Source of the DNA: Lachnospiraceae bacterium
Lineage (GTDB): Bacteria; Bacillota; Clostridia; Lachnospirales; Lachnospiraceae
Assembly (NCBI GenBank): GCA_024680595.1
Contig: JAILCB010000027.1
Span: 1-36,274, forward strand
Direction: 5' to 3'
DNA: 36,274 nt
Below the pieces are notes generated by a model. That model made no database searches. It saw only the letters and a program-made list of their open reading frames with translations, and was not told where the DNA came from. Position numbers and translations under genes: made by a program. Of this stretch, positions 9,595 through 35,950 are shown in pieces; the first letter of the stretch is position 1; each line of letters begins with the position of its first letter.

Positions 9595-9960
9595 ATAATG
9601 CCTGACCCATAAAAGCACATGAAGCATCAACAAAACGGCAGGCTTCTAACTGATCCCTGACGGAACTAATGGATCATGAAAACTTGAAGCATCAATAAAA
9701 CGACAGGCTTCTAACTGATCCCTGACGGAACTGATGGATCATGAAAACGAGAAGCATCAACAAAACGGCAGGCTTCTAAGCACGGCTTTGATAGATCTAA
9801 TGGCCCACAAAAGAATAATTAGCATCAGCAAAATCACAGGCTTCTACCGCGGCTTTGATAGATCTAATGGCCCACAAAAGAATAATTAGCATCAGCAAAA
9901 TCACAGGCTTCTACCGCGGCCTTGATGAATCTAATGGCCCCTGAAAGTAGATTTAGCATC
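9595..9960. repeat. Tandem array, about 65-68 bp period, 5 units plus partial ends
   Basis: GCATCARCAAAAYSRCAGGCTTCTA core recurs at 9624, 9689, 9754, 9822, 9889, with a degenerate start at 9956. Confidence 0.9.
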
Positions 9961-10004: not shown

Positions 10005-13000
10005 TTATAATTCGATTGTTTTTGCCAGGGCAACAGAATAGATCAATTTCTCCGCCACCTGTTTTCCCGTAAGCTGATTAAGGGCCTGAGCATAATAATC
10101 CAACTGGGTATGATACCTATCCACCAAAGTCCGGGCGTCTTTAACGGCATCCGTTTTGTAGTCCATGACAATGATTCTCCCGTCCTCCTCAAAGAAGGCA
10201 TCGATTATCCCCTGAATAAGCACCATCTCCCCCTCAGGATAGTCCGCTCTTAGCTCAGACGCGGGCCTGCCAATCAGGAAAGGCTGCTCCTGGAAAAGCT
10301 TTCCTTTCTCCTCAGCCCTCTGCATCCTCTGGGCAAGAGGACTCTTAATAAAGGCCAGAATATCCTTGGGCCGAATTCTCTTGGCCATTTCCGGCGAAAC
10401 CCGCTCTTCCTTAACCAAGGTATTCAGGTACTCCTCCACCTCTGCCAATGTATGGAGTTCGCCAAAGGGAAGCCTTTCAAAGGCGGTATGATAGGCAGTT
10501 CCCCTTTCCGCACCGCCCTTAGGCCTGCTTTCAATCTTATCCGCCGCCCTGCCGTCCGAAGCACTGCCAGCTTCATCCACAGGGCCCGTGGGCCTGCCTT
10601 CAATCTTATCCGCCGCCCTGCCGTCCGGAACTCTGCCAGCTTCATCCACAGAGCCCGTGGGCCTGCCCTCCCTCCTATCAGCAGGCTCAATCCCACTATC
10701 TAATTCCTGACTTCCTTCCCCTTGTCCAGTCTTTCTCTCTCCTAACCTGGGAGAAACCTTCTTCTCTCCCTTTATGCCATAAAGAGGTATATCAAATTCA
10801 TCATCCCGCATGGCGGCAATCTTTAATTCAGAAACAGAAACCTTAGCGGGAATATGAAGGGATGACTCATAAGGATAGGCGTAGGAAACTGCCTTATTCA
10901 GTCTATCCAGCACCTCCCCGTCATAGACCTTTTCAGGATCCACAGAAAGGAAATCATCCTGAAAGGAGACAAATTTAATCTCCTCCTCCACTGCTTCATC
11001 CACTGTCTCAAAAAGAGGGACCTGACTTACAGAAATCGACTTCGCTGCTTCCCCATCATTAATAGCCATTAGAACCAAATCCAGATAGGACAGAGCGCCT
11101 GAAATTCCCTTTCCCGAATAGGCCAGGGCCTTTTCCAAATCAGGAACCACTGCAGTCATAATGAGCTTTTCCTCTGCCCTGGTCATAGCCACATAGAGAA
11201 TCCGGATTTCCTCCCCCAGGGTATTCAGCTTTCTCCTGCAGGCAATGGCATCCATAATAGCAGTGGTCTTCTTGACCTTTCTATCAGGCTCCACATAGGA
11301 TAGTCCAATTCCCAATGAAGGATCTGTAACCATGGCAGCGGATGCATCCCTGAAATTAAATCGTTTCTGCAAATTACAGAGAAAAACCACTGGAAACTCC
11401 AGCCCCTTAGATTTATGAATACTCATAATCCGGACGGCGTTTCCTCCTTCCTCCGATCCCGCCTCTCCCAGATCCAATTCCCTCTTCTTTAACTGTTCAA
11501 TATAGCGTATAAAGCGGAAAAGTCCCCTATAGCTAGTCTCCTCATATTCTGCGGCCCGGCTAATCAGGAGTTCCAAATTTCCGGAGGCTGAACCGCCCTT
11601 GGTCGCGGCAAATAGATCATATCCGGTTTCATTTAAGATTCTGCGAATCAGGCTATGTATAGGTGTATAGGGAACCATATCCCGGTAACGCTCTAGCATA
11701 TGTAGAAAGGAGGCTGCTTTCCTCCTCAAAGCCATTAGTTCATCCACTGAAAGGACCGCCCTGACCTTGTCAGGAAAGCCCTTCGGGCCGTCCTCCCCGG
11801 TTCCCACATCAGCCTTATTTGAAGCCTCCGAAAGCACTCCAGCCTCCACTTCAACCTTCCCGGAAACCTCCGAAAGCTCTCCAGTCTCCACTTCATCCTT
11901 ATTTGAAGCCTTTGCCAGGTCTACATCCTCCACTTCAGCCTTATTGGAAGCCTCTGTCGAGTCTCCTTCTTCCACTTCAGCCTTCTTTGAGGCCTCTGCC
12001 GGGTCTACACCTTCCACTTCAGCCTTATTGGAAGCCTCTGCCGGCTCTCCTGCCGCCACTTTCAGAGCCTCATAAAAGCTGCCATCCTCCTTACAGAGGC
12101 GGATTCCCGCCAATTCCGAGTCCGAAAATCCCCCAAAAGGACTTTTCAACACGGCTGTAAGGGCAATATCCTGGACAGGATTATCCAGAATAGAAATGAA
12201 ATTGCAAACCGTCCTAACCTCCTCAGTCTGGAAATAGCCCGTTGCTGATTCCACATAGGCAGGAATCCCGGCCTCCTCCAAGGCCTTTCTATATACCTCA
12301 TCCACACCCGTAATCGTTCGGAGAAGTATGACAAAATCCCCATACTCAGCAGGCCGTCTCTCGCCGCTTCCCCTCTCTTCAATAGGAAAGCTGCCCACCA
12401 TCTTTCCAATCTTCTCCGCAACAGCCCTGGCCTCCAGCTCCAGAGGCTCTATCTCACCCTCGCTATCCTTTTCTAATAGCAGGAGCTCCGTCCCATTCTC
12501 CTCCAAATCCTCCAGATAGGAAGCCCCATAATAAAGCTCCGCCTGCCTGTCGTACTCCACACCTCCCACCGTAGGATGCATGACCCGCCTGAAAACATCA
12601 TTCACGGACTTTATCACACTTTTCCGGGAACGGAAATTCTTGGAAAGCACAATTTTTCTGCTCTTGGGGTCCCGGTCATAGCTTTCATATCGGGAGAGAA
12701 AGATTTCAGGCTCCGCCAGCCGAAAGCTATAAATACTCTGCTTCACATCCCCCACACAAAAGTAATTATTATCCTTTGCAATAGAGGTTAGGATGGCTTC
12801 CTGTATATGGTTGCTGTCCTGATATTCATCCGTCATAATTTCCTGAAAATAATCCCGGTACTCTTCTCCCGCCGATCCTTTCAGAATAGTTGCGGCGAAA
12901 TGCTCTAGATCAGAGAAATCCATAACGTTCTTTTTCTCCTTTAAGGAGGTAAAGATTTGCCGGAATCTCAATGTCAGCCTCACCAATTCCTCAATCAGAG

Positions 13001-14339
13001 GGGCGCAGACCGTGATTTCCGCTATTGCTTCATCCAGATCCCGGCGAAAATACTCCGATAGCTTATTAATCCTATCCTTACAGCCATTCCGGATATTCTT
13101 CACCATTTCCTTGATATCCGGATCCACATCCTTATCCTTCTTGGAGGAAAGCCTCTGAAAGCTCAGATTATTAAGCCTCTCCCGAATCTCGGTATAGGTA
13201 AGGAGGGATTTCTTTCTGCCGCCTGTGGCAGTCTTTCCGGAGCCACCTCCGGCCTCCTTTAATTCAGAAACCGCCTCTCCGGCCTCCTTTAATTCAGAAA
13301 CCGCCTCTCCGGTCTCCTTTGATTCAGAAACCGCCTCTCCATCTTCCTTTATTCCAGAGACAGCTTCCCCGGCCTCCTTTAATTCAGGAGCAGCTTCCAC
13401 ATCTTCCTTTAATTCCAGGACCGCTTCCCCTGCCTCCTTTAATTCAGGAGCAGCTTCCACATCTTCCTTTAATTCCAGGATCGCTTCTCCGGACTCCTTT
13501 AATTCCGTGACCAATCCTCCCTCTGAACTAGTCGGATCCTCATCCTCTCTATTTCCAGACAGAAAAGCAGAAAGCATATCCATATCCGACTCAACAGCAT
13601 CCAGATACATATAGGGTCCGGCGCAATCCTCAGCCAGACTTTGGGCCTTCTGCAAATCATGATAGATTTCCTCTATCTCATGAAGGAATAAGTTGCTAAA
13701 GTAGAGGGCCCAATCCTGCTCGTCCACAGGACTGGTCCGGGCGTTAATATAGGGAACCGGCAGCTCATTAAGCCATTTCTCCGGATCAACCCGACTCTCC
13801 GCATATTGATGGAGATCTAGTATCTGCTGCCTGACATCCAGATCATCCTTTCTAAATGAACAATGCTCCAGAAAAGAAAGAAATTCCTCACTGCCTTCCT
13901 CATAAGCCTCTTCCATGAGCTCATCCGCCGCATCCTCCTTTAAGAGTTCAATCTCCGGCTGATTTCCAATGCGGGAACCGGGATCCAATCCTATCCTATC
14001 AAAATTATCCCGGACCACCCGGCTACAGAAGCTGTCTATGGTGGTAATATGGGCACTATGGACCAGATTCAGCTGTTTTTGCAGCCTTTCATCCAAAGGA
14101 TGGGCCAGGGCCTCCCTTTCCAGTCTCATACGGATCCGCTCCCGCATCTCCGCCGCAGCCGCCTTGGTAAAGGTAACAACAAGAAGCCTGTCAATATCCA
14201 CAGGCATATCGGGGTCCAAAACCCGTCTAAGAATACGCTCCACCAAGACCGCAGTTTTCCCTGAACCCGCTGCGGCAGAAACCAAAATATTCTTTTCCCT
14301 GGTATCGATTACAGCCTGTTGATCCGGCGTAAATTGCAT
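10005..14339 (-). CDS. addA: ATP-dependent helicase/nuclease subunit A, with three in-frame repeat insertions
   Basis: MQFTPDQQAVIDTREKNILVSAAAGSGKTAVLVERIL (Walker A), TDEYQDSN (motif II), MSIHKSKGLEFPVVFLCNL, ILYVAMTRAEEKL, nuclease motif VMDYKTD; start at 14339 after GGAAGGA. Confidence 0.95.
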   Translation of the reverse strand: MQFTPDQQAVIDTREKNILVSAAAGSGKTAVLVERILRRVLDPDMPVDIDRLLVVTFTKAAAAEMRERIRMRLEREALAHPLDERLQKQLNLVHSAHITTIDSFCSRVVRDNFDRIGLDPGSRIGNQPEIELLKEDAADELMEEAYEEGSEEFLSFLEHCSFRKDDLDVRQQILDLHQYAESRVDPEKWLNELPVPYINARTSPVDEQDWALYFSNLFLHEIEEIYHDLQKAQSLAEDCAGPYMYLDAVESDMDMLSAFLSGNREDEDPTSSEGGLVTELKESGEAILELKEDVEAAPELKEAGEAVLELKEDVEAAPELKEAGEAVSGIKEDGEAVSESKETGEAVSELKEAGEAVSELKEAGGGSGKTATGGRKKSLLTYTEIRERLNNLSFQRLSSKKDKDVDPDIKEMVKNIRNGCKDRINKLSEYFRRDLDEAIAEITVCAPLIEELVRLTLRFRQIFTSLKEKKNVMDFSDLEHFAATILKGSAGEEYRDYFQEIMTDEYQDSNHIQEAILTSIAKDNNYFCVGDVKQSIYSFRLAEPEIFLSRYESYDRDPKSRKIVLSKNFRSRKSVIKSVNDVFRRVMHPTVGGVEYDRQAELYYGASYLEDLEENGTELLLLEKDSEGEIEPLELEARAVAEKIGKMVGSFPIEERGSGERRPAEYGDFVILLRTITGVDEVYRKALEEAGIPAYVESATGYFQTEEVRTVCNFISILDNPVQDIALTAVLKSPFGGFSDSELAGIRLCKEDGSFYEALKVAAGEPAEASNKAEVEGVDPAEASKKAEVEEGDSTEASNKAEVEDVDLAKASNKDEVETGELSEVSGKVEVEAGVLSEASNKADVGTGEDGPKGFPDKVRAVLSVDELMALRRKAASFLHMLERYRDMVPYTPIHSLIRRILNETGYDLFAATKGGSASGNLELLISRAAEYEETSYRGLFRFIRYIEQLKKRELDLGEAGSEEGGNAVRIMSIHKSKGLEFPVVFLCNLQKRFNFRDASAAMVTDPSLGIGLSYVEPDRKVKKTTAIMDAIACRRKLNTLGEEIRILYVAMTRAEEKLIMTAVVPDLEKALAYSGKGISGALSYLDLVLMAINDGEAAKSISVSQVPLFETVDEAVEEEIKFVSFQDDFLSVDPEKVYDGEVLDRLNKAVSYAYPYESSLHIPAKVSVSELKIAAMRDDEFDIPLYGIKGEKKVSPRLGERKTGQGEGSQELDSGIEPADRREGRPTGSVDEAGRVPDGRAADKIEGRPTGPVDEAGSASDGRAADKIESRPKGGAERGTAYHTAFERLPFGELHTLAEVEEYLNTLVKEERVSPEMAKRIRPKDILAFIKSPLAQRMQRAEEKGKLFQEQPFLIGRPASELRADYPEGEMVLIQGIIDAFFEEDGRIIVMDYKTDAVKDARTLVDRYHTQLDYYAQALNQLTGKQVAEKLIYSVALAKTIEL
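10522..10690 (-). repeat. Intragenic tandem repeat in addA, 69 bp (23 aa) x about 2.4
   Basis: GGCCTGCCTTCAATCTTATCCGCCGCCCTGCCGTCCG... at 10522, 10591, partial at 10660; encodes GRPTGPVDEAGSASDGRAADKIE. Confidence 0.9.
11806..12057 (-). repeat. Intragenic tandem repeat in addA, 42 bp (14 aa) x 6
   Basis: ACTTCAGCCTTATTGGAAGCCTCTGCCGGGTCT... every 42 bp from 11806; encodes EASNKAEVE-type repeats. Confidence 0.92.
13249..13518 (-). repeat. Intragenic tandem repeat in addA, 30 bp (10 aa) x 9
   Basis: CCGGCCTCCTTTAATTCAGAAACCGCCTCT-like units every 30 bp; encodes ELKEAGEAVS repeats with a 60 bp higher-order dimer at 13369-13488. Confidence 0.95.
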
Positions 14340-14399
14340 GCTAAACCATCCTTCCAAACAGAAAATCTTCTATAAGTATGCAGAAAAACCCACTCCAAA

Positions 14400-14700
14400 C
14401 CGCAAAGGAGCAGGCAGAAATCACTCTCCCAAAACATCAAGGAGCAAGCAGAAAACGCCCCCAAAATCATCAAGGAGCAAGCAGAAAGTCCCTTCCCCAA
14501 AGCATCAAGGAAAAATCCAAAAGCAGCCTCCCCAAAAGCATCAAGGAATAATCCCAAAGCAGTCTCCCCGAAAGCATCAAGGAAAATACCAAAGCAGCTT
14601 CCTCAAAGCATCAAGGAAAAATACCAAAGCAGCCTCCCCAAAGCATCAAAGAAAAATACCAAAAGCAGTCTCCTGAGAGCATCAAGGATCAACCCCAAAG
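14400..14700 (-). repeat. Tandem array in the addB-addA intergenic region, 33-36 bp period, about 9 copies, entering the addB 3' end
   Basis: CATCAA core at 14435, 14468, 14503, 14539, 14575, 14609, 14644, 14680; the last holds the addB stop codon (14682-14684). Confidence 0.92.
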
Positions 14701-17700
14701 CCCCCACTTCCTTCCTCTTCTTCCGAAAATACCCCGGGGTCCTCTATCTTCTTCAGGCGTCTGACCAGGTAGCCCGGAACCCTGGGATCAAAGGAACAGC
14801 AATCCCTGAAATCACAATAATCACAGGATAGCCTTTTGTCATACAGAACAGGAACAGGATCAATCTCCCCCTCACTTATCCTGGCCCGAAAATCCGCGGC
14901 CCTCCTTCTAACCGTTGCCAGAATGGCGGCAAAATCCTCTTCGCTGGCAACCGAGGATGTACTGTAAAAGCTACCATCCTTCTTGAAGGCAACCGGAATA
15001 ATGTCCGACTTCTGATCCATTTCCCTGTCAAAAAGAGAAAGCACCTCCGGATCCGAATTCACAAGCCCGCGCAGCTTCAGCTTTCCTTTCACCTTCTTAT
15101 GAATCTCCGAATCCGTCCCCTCCGTCAAATCTGCAGCATTAATAACCGGATCGTCAATATGATAGTAGAATATGCCCGCAGGCTTGACCTCCATAGAGGG
15201 ATGGGCCACACGCTCTATCTCCATAGCCCCATTCAGATACACGGCCAGCTGCAGGTCCAGGCCGTAATAAAGCCTAGTCAGATCAAAATCCTTATCCCCC
15301 GACTTATAATCAATGACTGAGAGATATATCACATTTCCCTTTTCCGCCGTATCAATGCGGTCAATCCGCCCAATAAAACCCTCTGACCGGAACTGCTTCT
15401 CAAAAGCCTCGGCCCGGAAATCCCCCGACTTCTCCTGTTCTCCAAGCACCTTAACTGTAGTTTTTAATATACGGGAAATCCGGTTCACAAAGTACCGGTT
15501 CCTCTGGGAGCTTAGCAAAACCACATTCTCATTCTCCCGGAGAAAACGATCCAGGACTTGCTCCGTCAGCTTTCCGACCTCTTCATCATCCAAGTCCTCA
15601 AAGGTCTGTCCCCTTGCTGCCAAAATCTCCCCGCAGAGATTGAGAACCCCATGCAGTACATTTCCCAGATCCCGCCTCTCAAAGCCAAACTCCTCCCGCT
15701 CCATTAGCCTCAGGCCATACCTCAAATAATGCTCATAGGCGCAGGAGGCAAAGCGCTCCAGCCGGGTTGGGGATGCAATGGTCCCACTCCCGTATAGCTC
15801 CTTAGCGACCGCTTTGGAAATAGGATCCGACCGATAATGACGAAAAGCCGCCTCTGTCATCATTCTGACCTGATCCCGGTAGTCCGCCGATGCAGAAAAG
15901 AAGCGGAAAAGTTCCTTGTCTCCATCTTCCGGGGCCTGCTTGCAGGCCAAAGACCGACTTAGAGAAATAAGGGCATCCCTGTCCGTCCTCAAATCCGACC
16001 GGTATTCCCCCTCCTGAATGGTCTCTATGGCAAGCTTGGGAAATAGCCCCCTCAAAACACTTACAAAATAGGATATTCGAATGACCTTCCCTTCCCTATC
16101 ATTACGGGAAAAAGTACAGCACAGCAGATCCTTCGGCTTCGTAATGGAAAGATAAAAGTAGAGCTTTTCCTCCCCAATCTTTTCCCTGGCCGTGGGAGAG
16201 AGATTGACATTTCTAGCCTTCAGGAACTCCCTATCCAAATCCGACAGAAGTCCTGAGCCTGCATTTTCCTTGGGAATCAGGGATTCATTTAAGCCTAGGA
16301 AGAATAGGGCCCGGATAGCGGAAAAACGGCTCCTGGTCATATCCCCTGCCGTCACACTGTCCGCCCCCGGAGGAATGGTGCCAATCCGCATCTCATCAAA
16401 GCCCGCATTCAAGGTATCCAGAAACTCCCTTAAGGCCATTTTCTCTCCGGGAATCAGATTCTCTATCCTCGTAAAGAGACCGTCCACCTTCTCCAGAATC
16501 TGGCCATATTCATCCGATAATCTGTCCTCTCCCTGCAGCAGGAATCTGTCCGAGAGAGTGGCAATCTTCTCATCCACCTGCAGATTCGCCAGAAAATCCC
16601 TCAAAGCCTCCACATATTTCCTGGCAGTGAGCTTTTTGGAAGGGGTCAGTTTATCCAGAGGGCCAAAAGCCTCCAGAATCCGCTCCCGCAGGCTGTTTAT
16701 ATGTTCCAGATCCTCCTCCTTCATCCCCTTCACATGAAGAGAAAAGCGATCCCTATACTTCTTCCGGCCCCGAATCCTTAGCGCTCTGACATAGTTCTCG
16801 AAAACGTCAATGTCCTCAGGCGAAAGGTCCATGAGTCCGGTCCGCAGGAAATGAAAAACCGATTCATAACTGAAATTATCAATAATTATCTCCAGGGCGG
16901 AACGAATGAATTCCACCAGAGGATTCATATAAACCCGGTTGGTTTCATCCACAAAGCAAGGAATTTGAAGACGGTCCGCCTCTTCTTTGAGAATTCTGCC
17001 ATAACGGCCCACATCGCTCATTACAATACCAATATCCTTGTATCGGTACCCCTCTTCCCTCACAAGGCGGACAATCTCCTCGCAGACAAACCCCACCTCC
17101 TCTGTGGGATTCTTCAGGCTGCAAAGACGGATATGGGAGCTGTCCCCCTCCCACCGCTTACCCTTTTGCCGGAAAATATTATTCTCCAGAAAGTCCAAAT
17201 CCTCCCTTTGGGCATATCTCCGGACCGGATTATCATATAGGTGGTCCGTCTTCACCTCCCAACCGGCCTCTGATGCCAAAGACCGTAAATGGGCTATCGT
17301 CTCGATGGAGAGTGCAAAGAAATCCCCATTTCTGCCGTCGTAAGGGAGAGTCACCCGAATTGAATCCGTAATATTAAACAGGCTCCTTATGAAGCGGTAC
17401 TGAATAGGCGTAAAACCCGTGAAATTATCAAAAATCACACAGGCCCCCCTGAGGAAAGGGGCCTCTTGACATACCCTTTCCGCCCGTTCCAAAAGCTCTT
17501 CCTTAGTAATATAGTCTGAGCCCATCTTCTCCCGAAAAGCCCGATAAAGAACCCCGATATCGTGAAGCTTGGAGCTCAGATACCTCTTAGCCTCCCCCTG
17601 GCAGACCTCTTCCGTCTCCACCGGATCCACTTCATATTGGATAAGCTCCGAAATAATAGACTTAACTTCACTTATAATCCCCTGCCTCCGGATACAGCCT

Positions 17701-18032
17701 TTGAGGACAGTCAGTTCCTCCAGATGCTCAGAGGCCACCTGGCGCAAAATCAGATTCTTCCCGGTATCATCCAGGATTTCTGCCATATCCCCTCCCGCAC
17801 TGTCAAAAATCCTATGGGCAAAACGGGCAAAAGAAAGGACATCAATATTCATGATGCCCTTTCTGGGATGACGCTCAATAATGAATTTTGTCGTTGCATG
17901 GGAAAACTGCTCCGGCACTACCACAATGAAATTCCGTTCCGGCATTTCTATGGAATCCCGAATCATATCCTGAAAAACCTTTTCTGTCTTTCCACTGCCG
18001 GATGGCCCCAAAACCAGCTTTAATTCAGGCAT
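14682..18032 (-). CDS. addB: ATP-dependent helicase/deoxyribonuclease subunit B
   Basis: MPELKLVLGPSGSGKTEKVFQDM, AddB-like architecture, C-terminal nuclease VIDYKSGD and FeS cysteines CDYCDFRDCC; start after GGAGAAG. Confidence 0.95.
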   Translation of the reverse strand: MPELKLVLGPSGSGKTEKVFQDMIRDSIEMPERNFIVVVPEQFSHATTKFIIERHPRKGIMNIDVLSFARFAHRIFDSAGGDMAEILDDTGKNLILRQVASEHLEELTVLKGCIRRQGIISEVKSIISELIQYEVDPVETEEVCQGEAKRYLSSKLHDIGVLYRAFREKMGSDYITKEELLERAERVCQEAPFLRGACVIFDNFTGFTPIQYRFIRSLFNITDSIRVTLPYDGRNGDFFALSIETIAHLRSLASEAGWEVKTDHLYDNPVRRYAQREDLDFLENNIFRQKGKRWEGDSSHIRLCSLKNPTEEVGFVCEEIVRLVREEGYRYKDIGIVMSDVGRYGRILKEEADRLQIPCFVDETNRVYMNPLVEFIRSALEIIIDNFSYESVFHFLRTGLMDLSPEDIDVFENYVRALRIRGRKKYRDRFSLHVKGMKEEDLEHINSLRERILEAFGPLDKLTPSKKLTARKYVEALRDFLANLQVDEKIATLSDRFLLQGEDRLSDEYGQILEKVDGLFTRIENLIPGEKMALREFLDTLNAGFDEMRIGTIPPGADSVTAGDMTRSRFSAIRALFFLGLNESLIPKENAGSGLLSDLDREFLKARNVNLSPTAREKIGEEKLYFYLSITKPKDLLCCTFSRNDREGKVIRISYFVSVLRGLFPKLAIETIQEGEYRSDLRTDRDALISLSRSLACKQAPEDGDKELFRFFSASADYRDQVRMMTEAAFRHYRSDPISKAVAKELYGSGTIASPTRLERFASCAYEHYLRYGLRLMEREEFGFERRDLGNVLHGVLNLCGEILAARGQTFEDLDDEEVGKLTEQVLDRFLRENENVVLLSSQRNRYFVNRISRILKTTVKVLGEQEKSGDFRAEAFEKQFRSEGFIGRIDRIDTAEKGNVIYLSVIDYKSGDKDFDLTRLYYGLDLQLAVYLNGAMEIERVAHPSMEVKPAGIFYYHIDDPVINAADLTEGTDSEIHKKVKGKLKLRGLVNSDPEVLSLFDREMDQKSDIIPVAFKKDGSFYSTSSVASEEDFAAILATVRRRAADFRARISEGEIDPVPVLYDKRLSCDYCDFRDCCSFDPRVPGYLVRRLKKIEDPGVFSEEEEGSGGFGVDP

Positions 18033-18591
18033 GACTTCTCCTTCCGGATACCCCATAGCGATTCCGGACTATCCTCTCGTCCTGCGTCGGAGCGAAGAGA
18101 AAATTTCCTATGCGCCACAGAATATATCCTGCCGCAAATCCCAGGCCATTCAGCACAATGTCATCCAAATCAAAGGTCCCCATAGCCGTATAATGCTGGG
18201 TACATTCTATAAGGAAGCTCACGGCAAAGCCTGTCGAAAGCCCAAAAAAGGCCATTCGAAATAGTTTAATTCCATGGGGAAGCAGAAATCCCAGCGGCAT
18301 GAGCAAGATAAAGTTCTCAATATAATGAACCGCCAGGGGCGCGCTGATATTGGACCCCGTCGTGAAAAAGGTCAGGTCCACATCCCCATACTGACCGACT
18401 TCTCTAGACAAGAGTGTCACAGAAGCCACCAGATACAAGTAACTAATTAGTATAGAATAATAAAAGCAGCGTCCTACATTCTTCCTGAAAATCCCGAAAA
18501 AGATGGGAAAGGAGGCAATACCAAGCGCCAGTGCCTCCGCCCCGTAGGTTGAAACAAAACTCCAAATATCTCCGCTTACATGATGTAGCAT
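18025..18591 (-). CDS. VanZ-like family protein
   Basis: ENFILLMPLGFLLP...FLIECTQHYTAMGTFDLDDIVLNGLGFAAGY matches the VanZ pattern; overlaps the addB start. Confidence 0.85.
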   Translation of the reverse strand: MLHHVSGDIWSFVSTYGAEALALGIASFPIFFGIFRKNVGRCFYYSILISYLYLVASVTLLSREVGQYGDVDLTFFTTGSNISAPLAVHYIENFILLMPLGFLLPHGIKLFRMAFFGLSTGFAVSFLIECTQHYTAMGTFDLDDIVLNGLGFAAGYILWRIGNFLFAPTQDERIVRNRYGVSGRRSHA

Positions 18592-18660: not shown

Positions 18661-18910
18661 CACAGCCTGCTTCAAATCCGTGCCCCACACAGCTTATCTT
18701 TTCAAGACCGTAAAGTATGACTGCATTACAGCCTGTTCCAAATCTACCCTACACAGCTTTTCTTTTCATAGCCGCAAAGTCAGACAGCATTACAGCCTGT
18801 TCCAAATCTACCCTACACAGCTTCTCTTTTCATAGCCGCAAAGTACGACTGCATTACAGCTTGCCCCAAATCCATGCCCTTCAATCAGCCTTCCTATCAG
18901 GGCCGCAAGG
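18661..18910 (-). repeat. Tandem array, about 64-67 bp period, about 3.7 copies, entering the nadE 3' end
   Basis: TTTTCATAGCCGCAAAGT-type core; GCCGCA position at 18707 (variant), 18771, 18835 and 18902 (inside nadE). Confidence 0.9.
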
Positions 18911-22933: not shown

Positions 22934-24886
22934 CTATTGTACCACATTATTACCTGTCTCTGCACTAGAAGATGCAGAATCTGTCCCATCGACAGATTCT
23001 TTCTCCAAATCCCCTTTATTTCCACTGATTTCAGAGAGTATTCTCTTCACGCCCGCTGCCGATAGGAGTAGGAAAAAGGGTGTTCCTATGAAAATATATC
23101 TGGCCTTGGCCTCGAAGAGGAGCTCGAAAAGGTGAAGGCCTATCAGGCTCAAGGCCAGGACAGCAAGGGTTTCCGGACCCCTCAATTCTCCATTCCTTCC
23201 CCTGCTCTCTGAGCCGCCAAAAGGGGCTGAGGGTGATAGAGGACGAGAGCCCCTTAATTCTCCATTCCCTCCCTCTCTCTCTGAGCCGCCAGAAGGGGCT
23301 GATAGAGGGCGAGAGCCCCTCAATCCCCCATTCCCTCCCCTGCTCTCTGAGCCGCCAGAAGGGACTGCAGGTGATAGAGGGTCAGATCCCCTCAATTCTC
23401 CATTCCTTCCCCTGTTCCTTGGTCCAAAAACACTGAAAAGGGACAGGAAGAGAACCATGAGCCAAACGATTTGCTGCATACTGGAAAACTTGCCATAATG
23501 CCGTCCCTCAGTGTGAATCCACTCCATCACATAGGGCCTCAGGGCGTTCTCTCTGACAGGAGGAAAATCTCCCAGGCTTGTGCCCGCAAAGAAATTCCCG
23601 TCAATTCCCCAGGCGAAGGTTCCGTCGGCAAAGTTTACAAGGGTCTTCTTTGTTAAATGGGACAAAAGTCCCTTAATTCCCATAGACCGCAGCCTTTCCC
23701 CGGCCAGGTCCATGTCAAACCGTGTGCGCTCCTCCGGATCCCCTATGGAATTGGTAAGGTTGGTATCCTCATTAGAATAGACCCCGTTGGTCTCCTGATT
23801 TAATCCCATCATGAAATAATGGGCCATTCCGAAGGGTTTATTGGGGTCTAGATCCATATGAAGGGAGGGAATCAGGATGAAGGAAATTATAAGCTTAGTC
23901 ACCAAAAGAGCCGCCAGAAAGGATAGGGCTCCTTTGGGAAAGCGGCGGCTCTCGGCAGTACCCACTACCTCAGCTTGCTTCTCCGGCATCCTTTTAATCG
24001 ATAGGGTCCCTTTGGGCAAGCGCCGGCTCTCAGCCCTTGTCTCATCCCTTCTGCCCGCAAGCGCTTTGAAGGCCGTCAATAAGAGGACAGCAATCACCGC
24101 TATGACGGTCTGTGGCTTCAGGGCATAGCCAATTGCCGTAAGTATGCCCATAAGAGCCCAAATTATGATAGGATTCTTTCCCTCCCTCAGCTGGAAAAGC
24201 CTTAGGACTGCCAGCGGAAAAATAAGCCCCACCGAATCGGAGTAGGTGATTAGAAGCCAGGGGGAAAGCCCGATAAAACCCGCAAAAACAAGCCAGGTCA
24301 GATAGGCCCCCAAATAGGAATCCAAAAGGGTCCGGGCGATTCGGAAAATCAGAATCCCACAGGCAGAATATAGGATACACTGAAAAATCCCCAGAACCAG
24401 CACCGATTCCGTACCAAATAAGGAAGCTGCTTTCATTACCGCCAGATAAATCCAGACCAGCAGCAGATTATTGGGATGGGCAGAGAAATAATCCACCGAG
24501 ACCGCCTCATAATCCCCCCGAAGAATATGGAAAACACCGCCCAAAACTCCTGCGGGATCCCAGTCCGAATAAAAAAATCCGCTAATTACAAAGAGACATT
24601 GAATTGCAAAAAGAAGCAGAACGACTAGGGGAAAAAGTATTTTTGTCCGCTTCTCCAGAAATCCTTCTAAGGCTTTTCGGAAACGGTATAGAGGAATTGC
24701 AAAAACAGCCGTTATCAAAACTCCTATCAGGAACAACTTGGGATTCGAAAGTAAAAATTCCTTTTTCAGATAATAATCTGTGCCCCCGGCAAAAAAGAGT
24801 ACCAGAAAGAAGGTCCAGCCAAAGAGCAGAAAGTAAAGGATATTTATGAACTTCAAGAAATAATCATATATACGAACTCTTCTCAT
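22934..24886 (-). CDS. Polytopic membrane protein, probably GT-C glycosyltransferase-like, with in-frame repeat insertions
   Basis: Many hydrophobic helices (ILYFLLFGWTFFLVLFFAG, ...LLVWIYLAVMKAAS...); periplasmic-loop-like segments; C-terminal NGELRGSRPLSPSAPFGGSESRG repeats. Confidence 0.6.
   Translation of the reverse strand: MRRVRIYDYFLKFINILYFLLFGWTFFLVLFFAGGTDYYLKKEFLLSNPKLFLIGVLITAVFAIPLYRFRKALEGFLEKRTKILFPLVVLLLFAIQCLFVISGFFYSDWDPAGVLGGVFHILRGDYEAVSVDYFSAHPNNLLLVWIYLAVMKAASLFGTESVLVLGIFQCILYSACGILIFRIARTLLDSYLGAYLTWLVFAGFIGLSPWLLITYSDSVGLIFPLAVLRLFQLREGKNPIIIWALMGILTAIGYALKPQTVIAVIAVLLLTAFKALAGRRDETRAESRRLPKGTLSIKRMPEKQAEVVGTAESRRFPKGALSFLAALLVTKLIISFILIPSLHMDLDPNKPFGMAHYFMMGLNQETNGVYSNEDTNLTNSIGDPEERTRFDMDLAGERLRSMGIKGLLSHLTKKTLVNFADGTFAWGIDGNFFAGTSLGDFPPVRENALRPYVMEWIHTEGRHYGKFSSMQQIVWLMVLFLSLFSVFGPRNRGRNGELRGSDPLSPAVPSGGSESRGGNGGLRGSRPLSAPSGGSEREGGNGELRGSRPLSPSAPFGGSESRGRNGELRGPETLAVLALSLIGLHLFELLFEAKARYIFIGTPFFLLLSAAGVKRILSEISGNKGDLEKESVDGTDSASSSAETGNNVVQ
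23178..23431 (-). repeat. Intragenic tandem repeat, 72/66/72 bp, about 3.5 copies
   Basis: CCCCTCAATTCTCCATTCC..CTCTCTGAGCCGCCAGAAGGGGCTG starting at 23178, 23250, 23316, 23388. Confidence 0.92.
23922..24035 (-). repeat. Intragenic direct repeat, 78 bp apart
   Basis: GATAGGGCTCCTTTGGGAAAGCGGCGGCTCTCGGC (23922) and GATAGGGTCCCTTTGGGCAAGCGCCGGCTCTCAGC (24000); encode AESRRFPKGALS and AESRRLPKGTLS. Confidence 0.85.
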
Positions 24887-33948: not shown

Positions 33949-34080
33949 GGGATTCCTCCATCCTGGAACTAGCGGCCAAAATACCGTCATTTCACTTCGG
34001 GCAGGGCCGCCGCCATCAGGGAACTACAATATACCGATAATGCCAACAGCCCGAAAACGCTCCTCACCAGTCGCCATCCG

Positions 34081-34396
34081 CCACGGCTGTCTCTAAGCGG
34101 CAGATGCCCCAATTAGCCACAGGTGACTGGTCCACGGCTGTCTCTAGCAACAGCTGTCCCAGCCGGCCGCAGATGACTAGGCCACAGCTGTCTCTAGCAA
34201 CAGCTGCCCCAGCCGGCCGCAGATGACTAGGCCACGGCTGTCTCTAGCAACAGCTGCCCCAGCCGGCCGCAGGTGACTGGTCCACGGCTATCTCTAGCGG
34301 CAGCTGCCCCAGCCGGCCGCAGATGACTAGGCCACGGCAGTCTCTAGCGACAGCTGCCCCAGCCGGCCGCAGATGACTGGTCCACGGCTGTCTCTA
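34081..34396 (-). repeat. 50 bp tandem array, about 6.3 copies, entering the vanW-type gene stop codon
   Basis: CCACGGCTGTCTCTAGCAACAGCTGCCCCAGCCGGCCGCAGATGACTAGG units starting at 34081, 34132, 34182, 34232, 34282, 34332, 34382. Confidence 0.96.
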
Positions 34397-35950
34397 GGCC
34401 GCAGGTGCCGCGGGCGTCTCTGGTGTGGCGGGTGCCGCAGGCGTCTCCGGCGTAGGTGCAGGTGCCGGACTTGCCTGATTGGGATCCACTGCATTCGGAT
34501 CCACAGCATTGGGATCCACCGCATTGGGATCGGTGGGCACCGGGGTCTCCGGCGTGGGGAACTGGGTATTCCTATGAATCTGGGCAGAATGTCCCTTATA
34601 CCTGGTCTGGTGAAGATAGGTTCTGTCGATTACCTGCCCATCCTTCTCCGTAACAATATAGGTTTTCCAAACACTGCCGTTAGATCCCGCCTTCACCTGG
34701 ACCTCCGTGCCAAAAGGCACTGCCGGATCCTCTGTATAGATAGGGGCCGGCGGATCACTTTCCCCGGTCTTCTCAGACTCCATATAGCGCTTCTCACCCT
34801 CTTCCAGCAAAGGGATTCCAAAGAGCTCCACATGCATGGTCCGGTCGTGGAAGGAGGTCTTTATCCCCACACAGGCCGGGCTGGTATTGGTAAAGATAAA
34901 GTCAGGCTTGGGATAACTCACCGTGGCATCCTGGCCCGGAGTCACATAGGAGGGCTCAAAAGTGTGACCCAGCCTGTTATCCGTACGGAGACCCGCTGAA
35001 ATAACCGCATTATAGAGGGTACTGGACACCTGGCACACGCCTCCGCCATATTCCTGAACCGTCTGGCCGTCCGCATAGGCTCCGGCCTCCTGATAGCCCT
35101 TCTCCGGCGTCCGTTTTCCCAGCACAGTATTAAAGGAAAACTGCTCACCGGGCTCCAGAATGATACCATTCACACTCTGGCTTGCCAGCTTTACATTGGT
35201 ATTTCGTTTCTGATTGGCTGTAGTATGGGTAGTATAGGAGCTCATGGTCTTGAAATCCGCCGCATTAATGGAAGGGGACACGGCAATGATAGAGACAGGA
35301 ATTTCCCTGTCATAGTCTTCTGCCGTGAGAGCCGCATTCAAATCGGACTCCAGCTTGTCCCGGTCCACTTCCTTTCCATCCTTGCCCTCGGAAACTACGA
35401 ACTCTCCCGTTGAGGAATCGTAGCCGGTAATCCGGCTGTTCTCCATATGGGTGCCCCATTTCTCGGACAACTCTTCCACCACCTCTGAAACCCGTGCGGA
35501 ATAACCCTGCAGAGAGAAATCCTTCACCACAGAAACCTCATTCCCATCTCCAAAGGAAAAAACCCGATTCATAAAAGACCTGGATTCAAATTCTTCCCTG
35601 GCCTTATCGGCTTCCGCATAGGCTTCGTCCACTACAGAGCTAATCTCCGGTCCAATCAGGTTCTCCATGGTGAAACGGTCCGTTCCATGGGTAATCACAA
35701 GATTCCAGGGGTGCTTCTTATTCAGATAGACCAAAGCCTCTTCCCGGCTCATCTCACTGACATCCTCGCCGTCAACCTGGATCTGAAGCTCCAGCTCTTC
35801 TCTGGAAACAGCAATTCCCCGGACCAGGAAAAATATTCCTACGCCCAAAAGAAGGATTCCCAGCACCACTATTGCCTGTCTGATTCTTTTAATACGTCTT
35901 CTCCGACGCCGGCCAACACTCCGTCTCGGCGACGTCCTATAATTTGTCAT
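34394..35950 (-). CDS. VanW family protein with C-terminal G5-like domain and Pro/Ala-rich tail
   Basis: N-terminal TM; YGGGVCQVSSTLYNAVISAGL...GHTFEPSYVTPGQDATVSYPKPDFIFTN (VanW); EVQVKAGSNGSVWKTYIVTEKDGQVIDRTYLHQTRYK (G5-like). Confidence 0.9.
   Translation of the reverse strand: MTNYRTSPRRSVGRRRRRRIKRIRQAIVVLGILLLGVGIFFLVRGIAVSREELELQIQVDGEDVSEMSREEALVYLNKKHPWNLVITHGTDRFTMENLIGPEISSVVDEAYAEADKAREEFESRSFMNRVFSFGDGNEVSVVKDFSLQGYSARVSEVVEELSEKWGTHMENSRITGYDSSTGEFVVSEGKDGKEVDRDKLESDLNAALTAEDYDREIPVSIIAVSPSINAADFKTMSSYTTHTTANQKRNTNVKLASQSVNGIILEPGEQFSFNTVLGKRTPEKGYQEAGAYADGQTVQEYGGGVCQVSSTLYNAVISAGLRTDNRLGHTFEPSYVTPGQDATVSYPKPDFIFTNTSPACVGIKTSFHDRTMHVELFGIPLLEEGEKRYMESEKTGESDPPAPIYTEDPAVPFGTEVQVKAGSNGSVWKTYIVTEKDGQVIDRTYLHQTRYKGHSAQIHRNTQFPTPETPVPTDPNAVDPNAVDPNAVDPNQASPAPAPTPETPAAPATPETPAAPAA
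34482..34531 (-). repeat. Intragenic 15 bp tandem repeat (DPNAV) in the vanW-type gene
   Basis: GGATCCACNGCATTS every 15 bp at 34482, 34497, 34512, partial at 34527. Confidence 0.9.

Follow-up and report, generated by a model that had tools for sequence, protein, structure and literature searches.

Bacterial minisatellites, or variable-number tandem repeat (VNTR) loci, consist of imperfect head-to-tail copies of a unit of tens of bases that occupy one locus and are absent from the orthologous site of relatives; the VNTR class is also marked by copy numbers that differ between strains. Mycobacterial MIRUs are tandem units at the stop-start junction of a two-gene operon, such as senX3-regX3, in which each unit carries a stop/start overlap (PMC12548453); the arrays at this locus are attributed to Supply et al. 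1997, as cited in PMC4213456. Intergenic tandem repeats are also found in freshwater Planctomycetota, where they are tied to structural variation and ascribed to replication slippage (PMC9426551).

The array described here lies between addB and addA in a 36,274-bp stretch of DNA from a Lachnospiraceae genome, all of which was analysed and which is referred to as the window. It is probably a minisatellite, a known kind of repeat at a newly seen locus: its head-to-tail units of 33 to 36 bp fall within the roughly 10 to 100 bp of that class. Unlike an ordinary VNTR, it is one of unusually many such loci in its genome, and the comparison covers one genome of the species. Its location recalls the MIRUs, since addB and addA are co-directional (minus strand) and the units sit at the stop-start junction. 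However, MIRU units measure 77/53 bp and are dispersed at many loci, whereas the addB-addA array occupies one place in its genome and, among 48 genomes of the genus, is absent from all 47 relatives, in which the sole match was 24 bp long (E = 9e-4). The coupling geometry differs as well, with an overlap of -4 nt in MIRUs and of -1 nt here, where no clean ORF ends on the downstream start. The Planctomycetota case resembles ours in having intergenic arrays but concerns another phylum, and in the genome studied here arrays are equally common inside genes.

Anatomy of the addB-addA array

The addB gene (14682..18056, minus strand) encodes 1,124 aa, and its only strong NCBIfam match is TIGR02773 (addB_Gpos; E = 3e-238), at 794 bits, which is below the equivalog cut-off of 904 bits; addB homologues are present in 40 of 41 genomes. 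The addA gene (10005..14339, minus strand; 1,444 aa) matches TIGR02785 (addA_Gpos) with 961 bits, over its cut-off. The gap between the addB stop and the addA start (ATG, 14337-14339) is 342 nt, of which the array makes up about 81%. The 3' end of addB reads ...GGC TTT GGG GTT GAT CCT TGA, and this stop (14682..14684) overlaps an ATG by one base (TGATG, 14680-14684) inside the array.

Overlapping TRF rows span 14405..14701 on the minus strand, with a top score of 313 and periods of 36 bp (5.9 copies, score 270), 33 bp (3.2 copies) and 106 bp (1.9 copies, 88% identity). The last is a higher-order block of three units, which indicates block duplication. The array holds eight full units (14409-14687), preceded by a partial unit 0 in the last codons of addB (14688..14701) and followed towards addA by a decayed ninth unit that has lost TGATG (14373..14408). 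The full units are unit 1 (36 bp, 14652..14687), which holds the addB stop codon, and units 2 (35 bp, 14617..14651), 3 (34 bp, 14583..14616), 4 (36 bp, 14547..14582), 5 (36 bp, 14511..14546), 6 (35 bp, 14476..14510), 7 (33 bp, 14443..14475) and 8 (34 bp, 14409..14442). The lengths are mixed modulo 3, and the TGAs of the units therefore lie in different frames. Two sub-types were distinguished, with GG(T/G)ATTTTT-like ends in units 1 to 5 and TTTCTGCTTGCT from unit 6 to unit 8. An earlier note made from the letters of this stretch had described an array of about nine units of 33 to 36 bp that includes the addB stop and fills most of a gap of roughly 340 bp, all of which holds. Its statement that most copies retain TGA was too cautious: although 22 of 37 columns vary in the unit alignment, the six consecutive columns of TTGATG, the most conserved block, are invariant in all eight units. 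The entire 33- to 36-bp period is repeated without spacers, and a CRISPR array, in which unrelated spacers of regular length part identical repeats, was rejected on this ground. A 112-aa open frame runs antisense over the whole array (14338-14676, plus strand); the plus strand is T-poor there and has few stops, and the frame is probably due to chance.

The junction in relatives and the initiation of addA

The addB-addA junction could be read in 27 relatives of the genus. The two genes overlap in 14, often by -4, -14 or -17 nt, are 0 to 30 nt apart in 10 and are 74 to 162 nt apart in the other 3. The view that the array sets the spacing of addB and addA is borne out, and the relatives, whose genes mostly overlap or have gaps of at most 30 nt, show this spacing to be new. 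The host, a rumen bacterium, belongs to an uncultured genus, and a search of GTDB contigs retrieved relatives, named Lachnospiraceae and in several cases sampled from the rumen, and no further genome of the same species. The nearest relatives lack the array and, with AddB identities of only 53 to 58%, date its birth only loosely. In two of the three junctions of 74 to 162 nt, those of L070 and L072 from two other species of the genus, another repeated sequence with a dispersed look is present as GTCATTCTGAGCGAAGCGAAGAATC and as the reverse complement of this, and L006, L052 and L055 contain tandem copies of the related motifs CTCAGAATGACA/TGTCATCCTGAGCG.

Translational coupling usually takes the form of a start that overlaps a stop (PMC12548453). 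Coupled pairs have stop-start distances within about -8 to +10 nt, and in reporter work termination-reinitiation was nearly abolished already at gaps of about 20 nt (PMC10666635). Most relatives fall within the former range and the 342 nt found here falls outside it, so that by this published distance standard most relatives would be coupled and the array-bearing species would not. Given the limit of about 20 nt, one unit would be enough to break coupling and further units would add nothing. A Shine-Dalgarno region for addA (GGAAGGATGG, 14346..14355, minus strand) has an AAGGA core that precedes the ATG by 9 nt, and addA would be translated from this site of its own on the same mRNA as addB. 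A crude scan of the gap found neither a promoter-like nor a terminator-like site; an independent addA promoter beyond the array, which would have counted against the earlier note, was thus not seen. One promoter-like match lies inside addB (14842-14814).

The array lies upstream of the addA start on a likely common mRNA, and its length might tune addA expression, as in a contingency locus, by way of distance or of the structure or stability of the mRNA. The coding-strand RNA of the array folds somewhat better than controls (-85.2 versus -70.2, sd 7.8, for column-permuted arrays, of which 4 in 200 reach so low a value; z = -2.1 relative to dinucleotide shuffles), and the opposite strand is unremarkable. 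However, the predicted accessibility of the addA SD-to-ATG region stays between 0.41 and 0.58 at all unit numbers from 0 to 8, with or without a ribosome at the addB stop, and the scan showed no terminator-like or promoter-like site in the gap. We consider such tuning unlikely.

A stop-restart relay, in which the TGATG of each unit re-initiates the ribosome and coupling to addA survives the 342 nt, has been proposed for mycobacterial MIRUs and is slightly less probable still. The stop of addB is itself a TGATG, all eight unit boundaries carry one and TTGATG is the best conserved block. In addition, a chain can be drawn from the addB stop that begins with an ORF of 23 codons, takes a short TTG/ATG step and goes on with an ORF of 35 codons, the stop of every member overlapping the next start. 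However, the chain closes with an ORF of 53 codons that starts at 14470, crosses the addA ATG out of frame and stops 28 nt inside addA, whereas MIRUs end at -4 nt (PMC12548453). The unit lengths are mixed modulo 3, the ORF of unit 3 stops after two codons, and no unit ATG has a good Shine-Dalgarno sequence at normal spacing. Copying of one unit that happened to hold the stop explains much of what is seen. The suggestion that array length might tune translational coupling is not supported, in view of the limit of about 20 nt, the overrun of the addA start and the flat predicted accessibility of its Shine-Dalgarno site.

Array load of the host genome and the origin of the array

Arrays were counted with one TRF filter (period of at least 15, score of at least 80) in the host genome, sampled as stretches of about 734 kb in total (loci L032-L051, L108-L127 and L148-L187 and the window), and in DNA of the genus. 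Outside the window, the host genome contains 129 arrays in 698 kb (1.85 per 10 kb, 3.6% of bases), and the genus DNA contains 17 in 875 kb (0.19 per 10 kb, 0.22% of bases). The array density of the host is thus about 10 times that of the genus, and about 600 arrays are estimated genome-wide by extrapolation to 3.2 Mb. These arrays have unrelated units and lie both within and between genes. The 64 intergenic gaps with arrays comprise 50 co-directional, 8 convergent and 6 divergent ones, and the other gaps 312, 44 and 60; with the same orientation mix in both, the addB-addA junction is not special. The period is divisible by 3 in 53 of 57 arrays inside ORFs, a figure that is partly built in since an out-of-frame array would disrupt the very ORF by which it is classed, and the periods of intergenic arrays spread 17/24/18 over the three classes modulo 3. 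Selection that acts on reading frame alone would be expected to give this pattern.

We consider it likely that the array is a minisatellite that was born in place in a duplication-prone genome and removed the ancestral addB-addA overlap, with addA initiating at its own Shine-Dalgarno site. The sequence around the addB stop would have been duplicated in tandem repeatedly, as single units and as three-unit blocks, in a genome that appears to make or keep such arrays at about 10 times the rate of its genus. Growth of the array would have pushed the two genes apart, and the ancestral stop-start coupling was most likely lost; the array may be tolerated because addA is able to initiate by itself. 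Purifying selection would hold the edges, namely the conserved C-terminus of AddB and the ribosome-binding site of addA, while the interior is probably close to neutral and the copy number probably variable. The invariance of TTGATG counts against pure neutrality, which does not predict such conservation; together with the fold signal it forms two loose ends, both chosen post hoc, that make a modest case against neutrality. The array appears to be a by-product of duplication throughout the genome, not a dedicated switch. The interpretation in the earlier note is supported for spacing and not for coupling, and it had missed that the array is one of very many.

That the array belongs to a dispersed repeat family or is a mobile element, and inserted at the junction, is very improbable. 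Other species of the genus do carry dispersed elements here, as L070 and L072 do with GTCATTCTGAGCGAAGCGAAGAATC. However, the array is present only in its own genome and there, in a search that covers a draft of 85% of the genome, at a single place, which argues that no dispersed element brought it; the units of the other arrays are unrelated and, in a search of Rfam over the window that returned only a tRNA, the array had no match. An assembly artefact, which might be feared in a draft of 318 contigs with 85% completeness and 4% contamination, is equally improbable, as most alignment columns vary among the units, arrays inside ORFs stay in frame and related genomes that are also draft assemblies lack such a load.

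The genome-wide load matters more than the single array. Loss of recJ or mutS was rejected as its cause, both genes being present and intact in the host genome. It is conceivable, and we put it forward only tentatively, that replication or repair is heritably altered in this lineage, so that tandem duplications of 15 to 140 bp arise or persist about 10 times as often as in the genus, and that the altered AddAB operon is possibly part of the cause. Among the papers searched, none joins tandem repeats, Lachnospiraceae and minisatellite. If the tenfold load is confirmed across the whole genome and in further strains, such an accumulation of unrelated minisatellites in a single lineage would be new, as would its cause. 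Several hundred minisatellites with unrelated units, which lie between genes and also in the linkers of core proteins, would make a natural case for studying the limits to tandem duplication in bacteria, and the addB-addA array would be a natural test of whether balanced synthesis of the two-subunit AddAB depends on stop-start coupling.

The question of duplication limits becomes concrete at addAB, a recombination-repair operon with five arrays in and around it within about 9 kb. Three in-frame arrays lie inside addA, with periods of 30 bp (13247-13505), 42 bp (11804-12061) and 69 bp (10515-10667) as detected by TRF, and an intergenic array with a period of 65 to 67 bp adjoins the end of addA (9620-9940). 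AddA has 1,444 aa, compared with 1,156 to 1,204 aa in relatives, and the excess of about 270 aa is mainly due to insertions at three places, each coinciding with one of these in-frame arrays. The window contains nine arrays in total, which account for 5.8% of its bases. Among them are intergenic arrays upstream of addB (64-bp period, 18662-18872) and near 34 kb (50-bp period, 34080-34397), and an array of 3.4 copies of 72 bp (23178-23414) inside a 650-aa ORF (22934-24886, minus strand).
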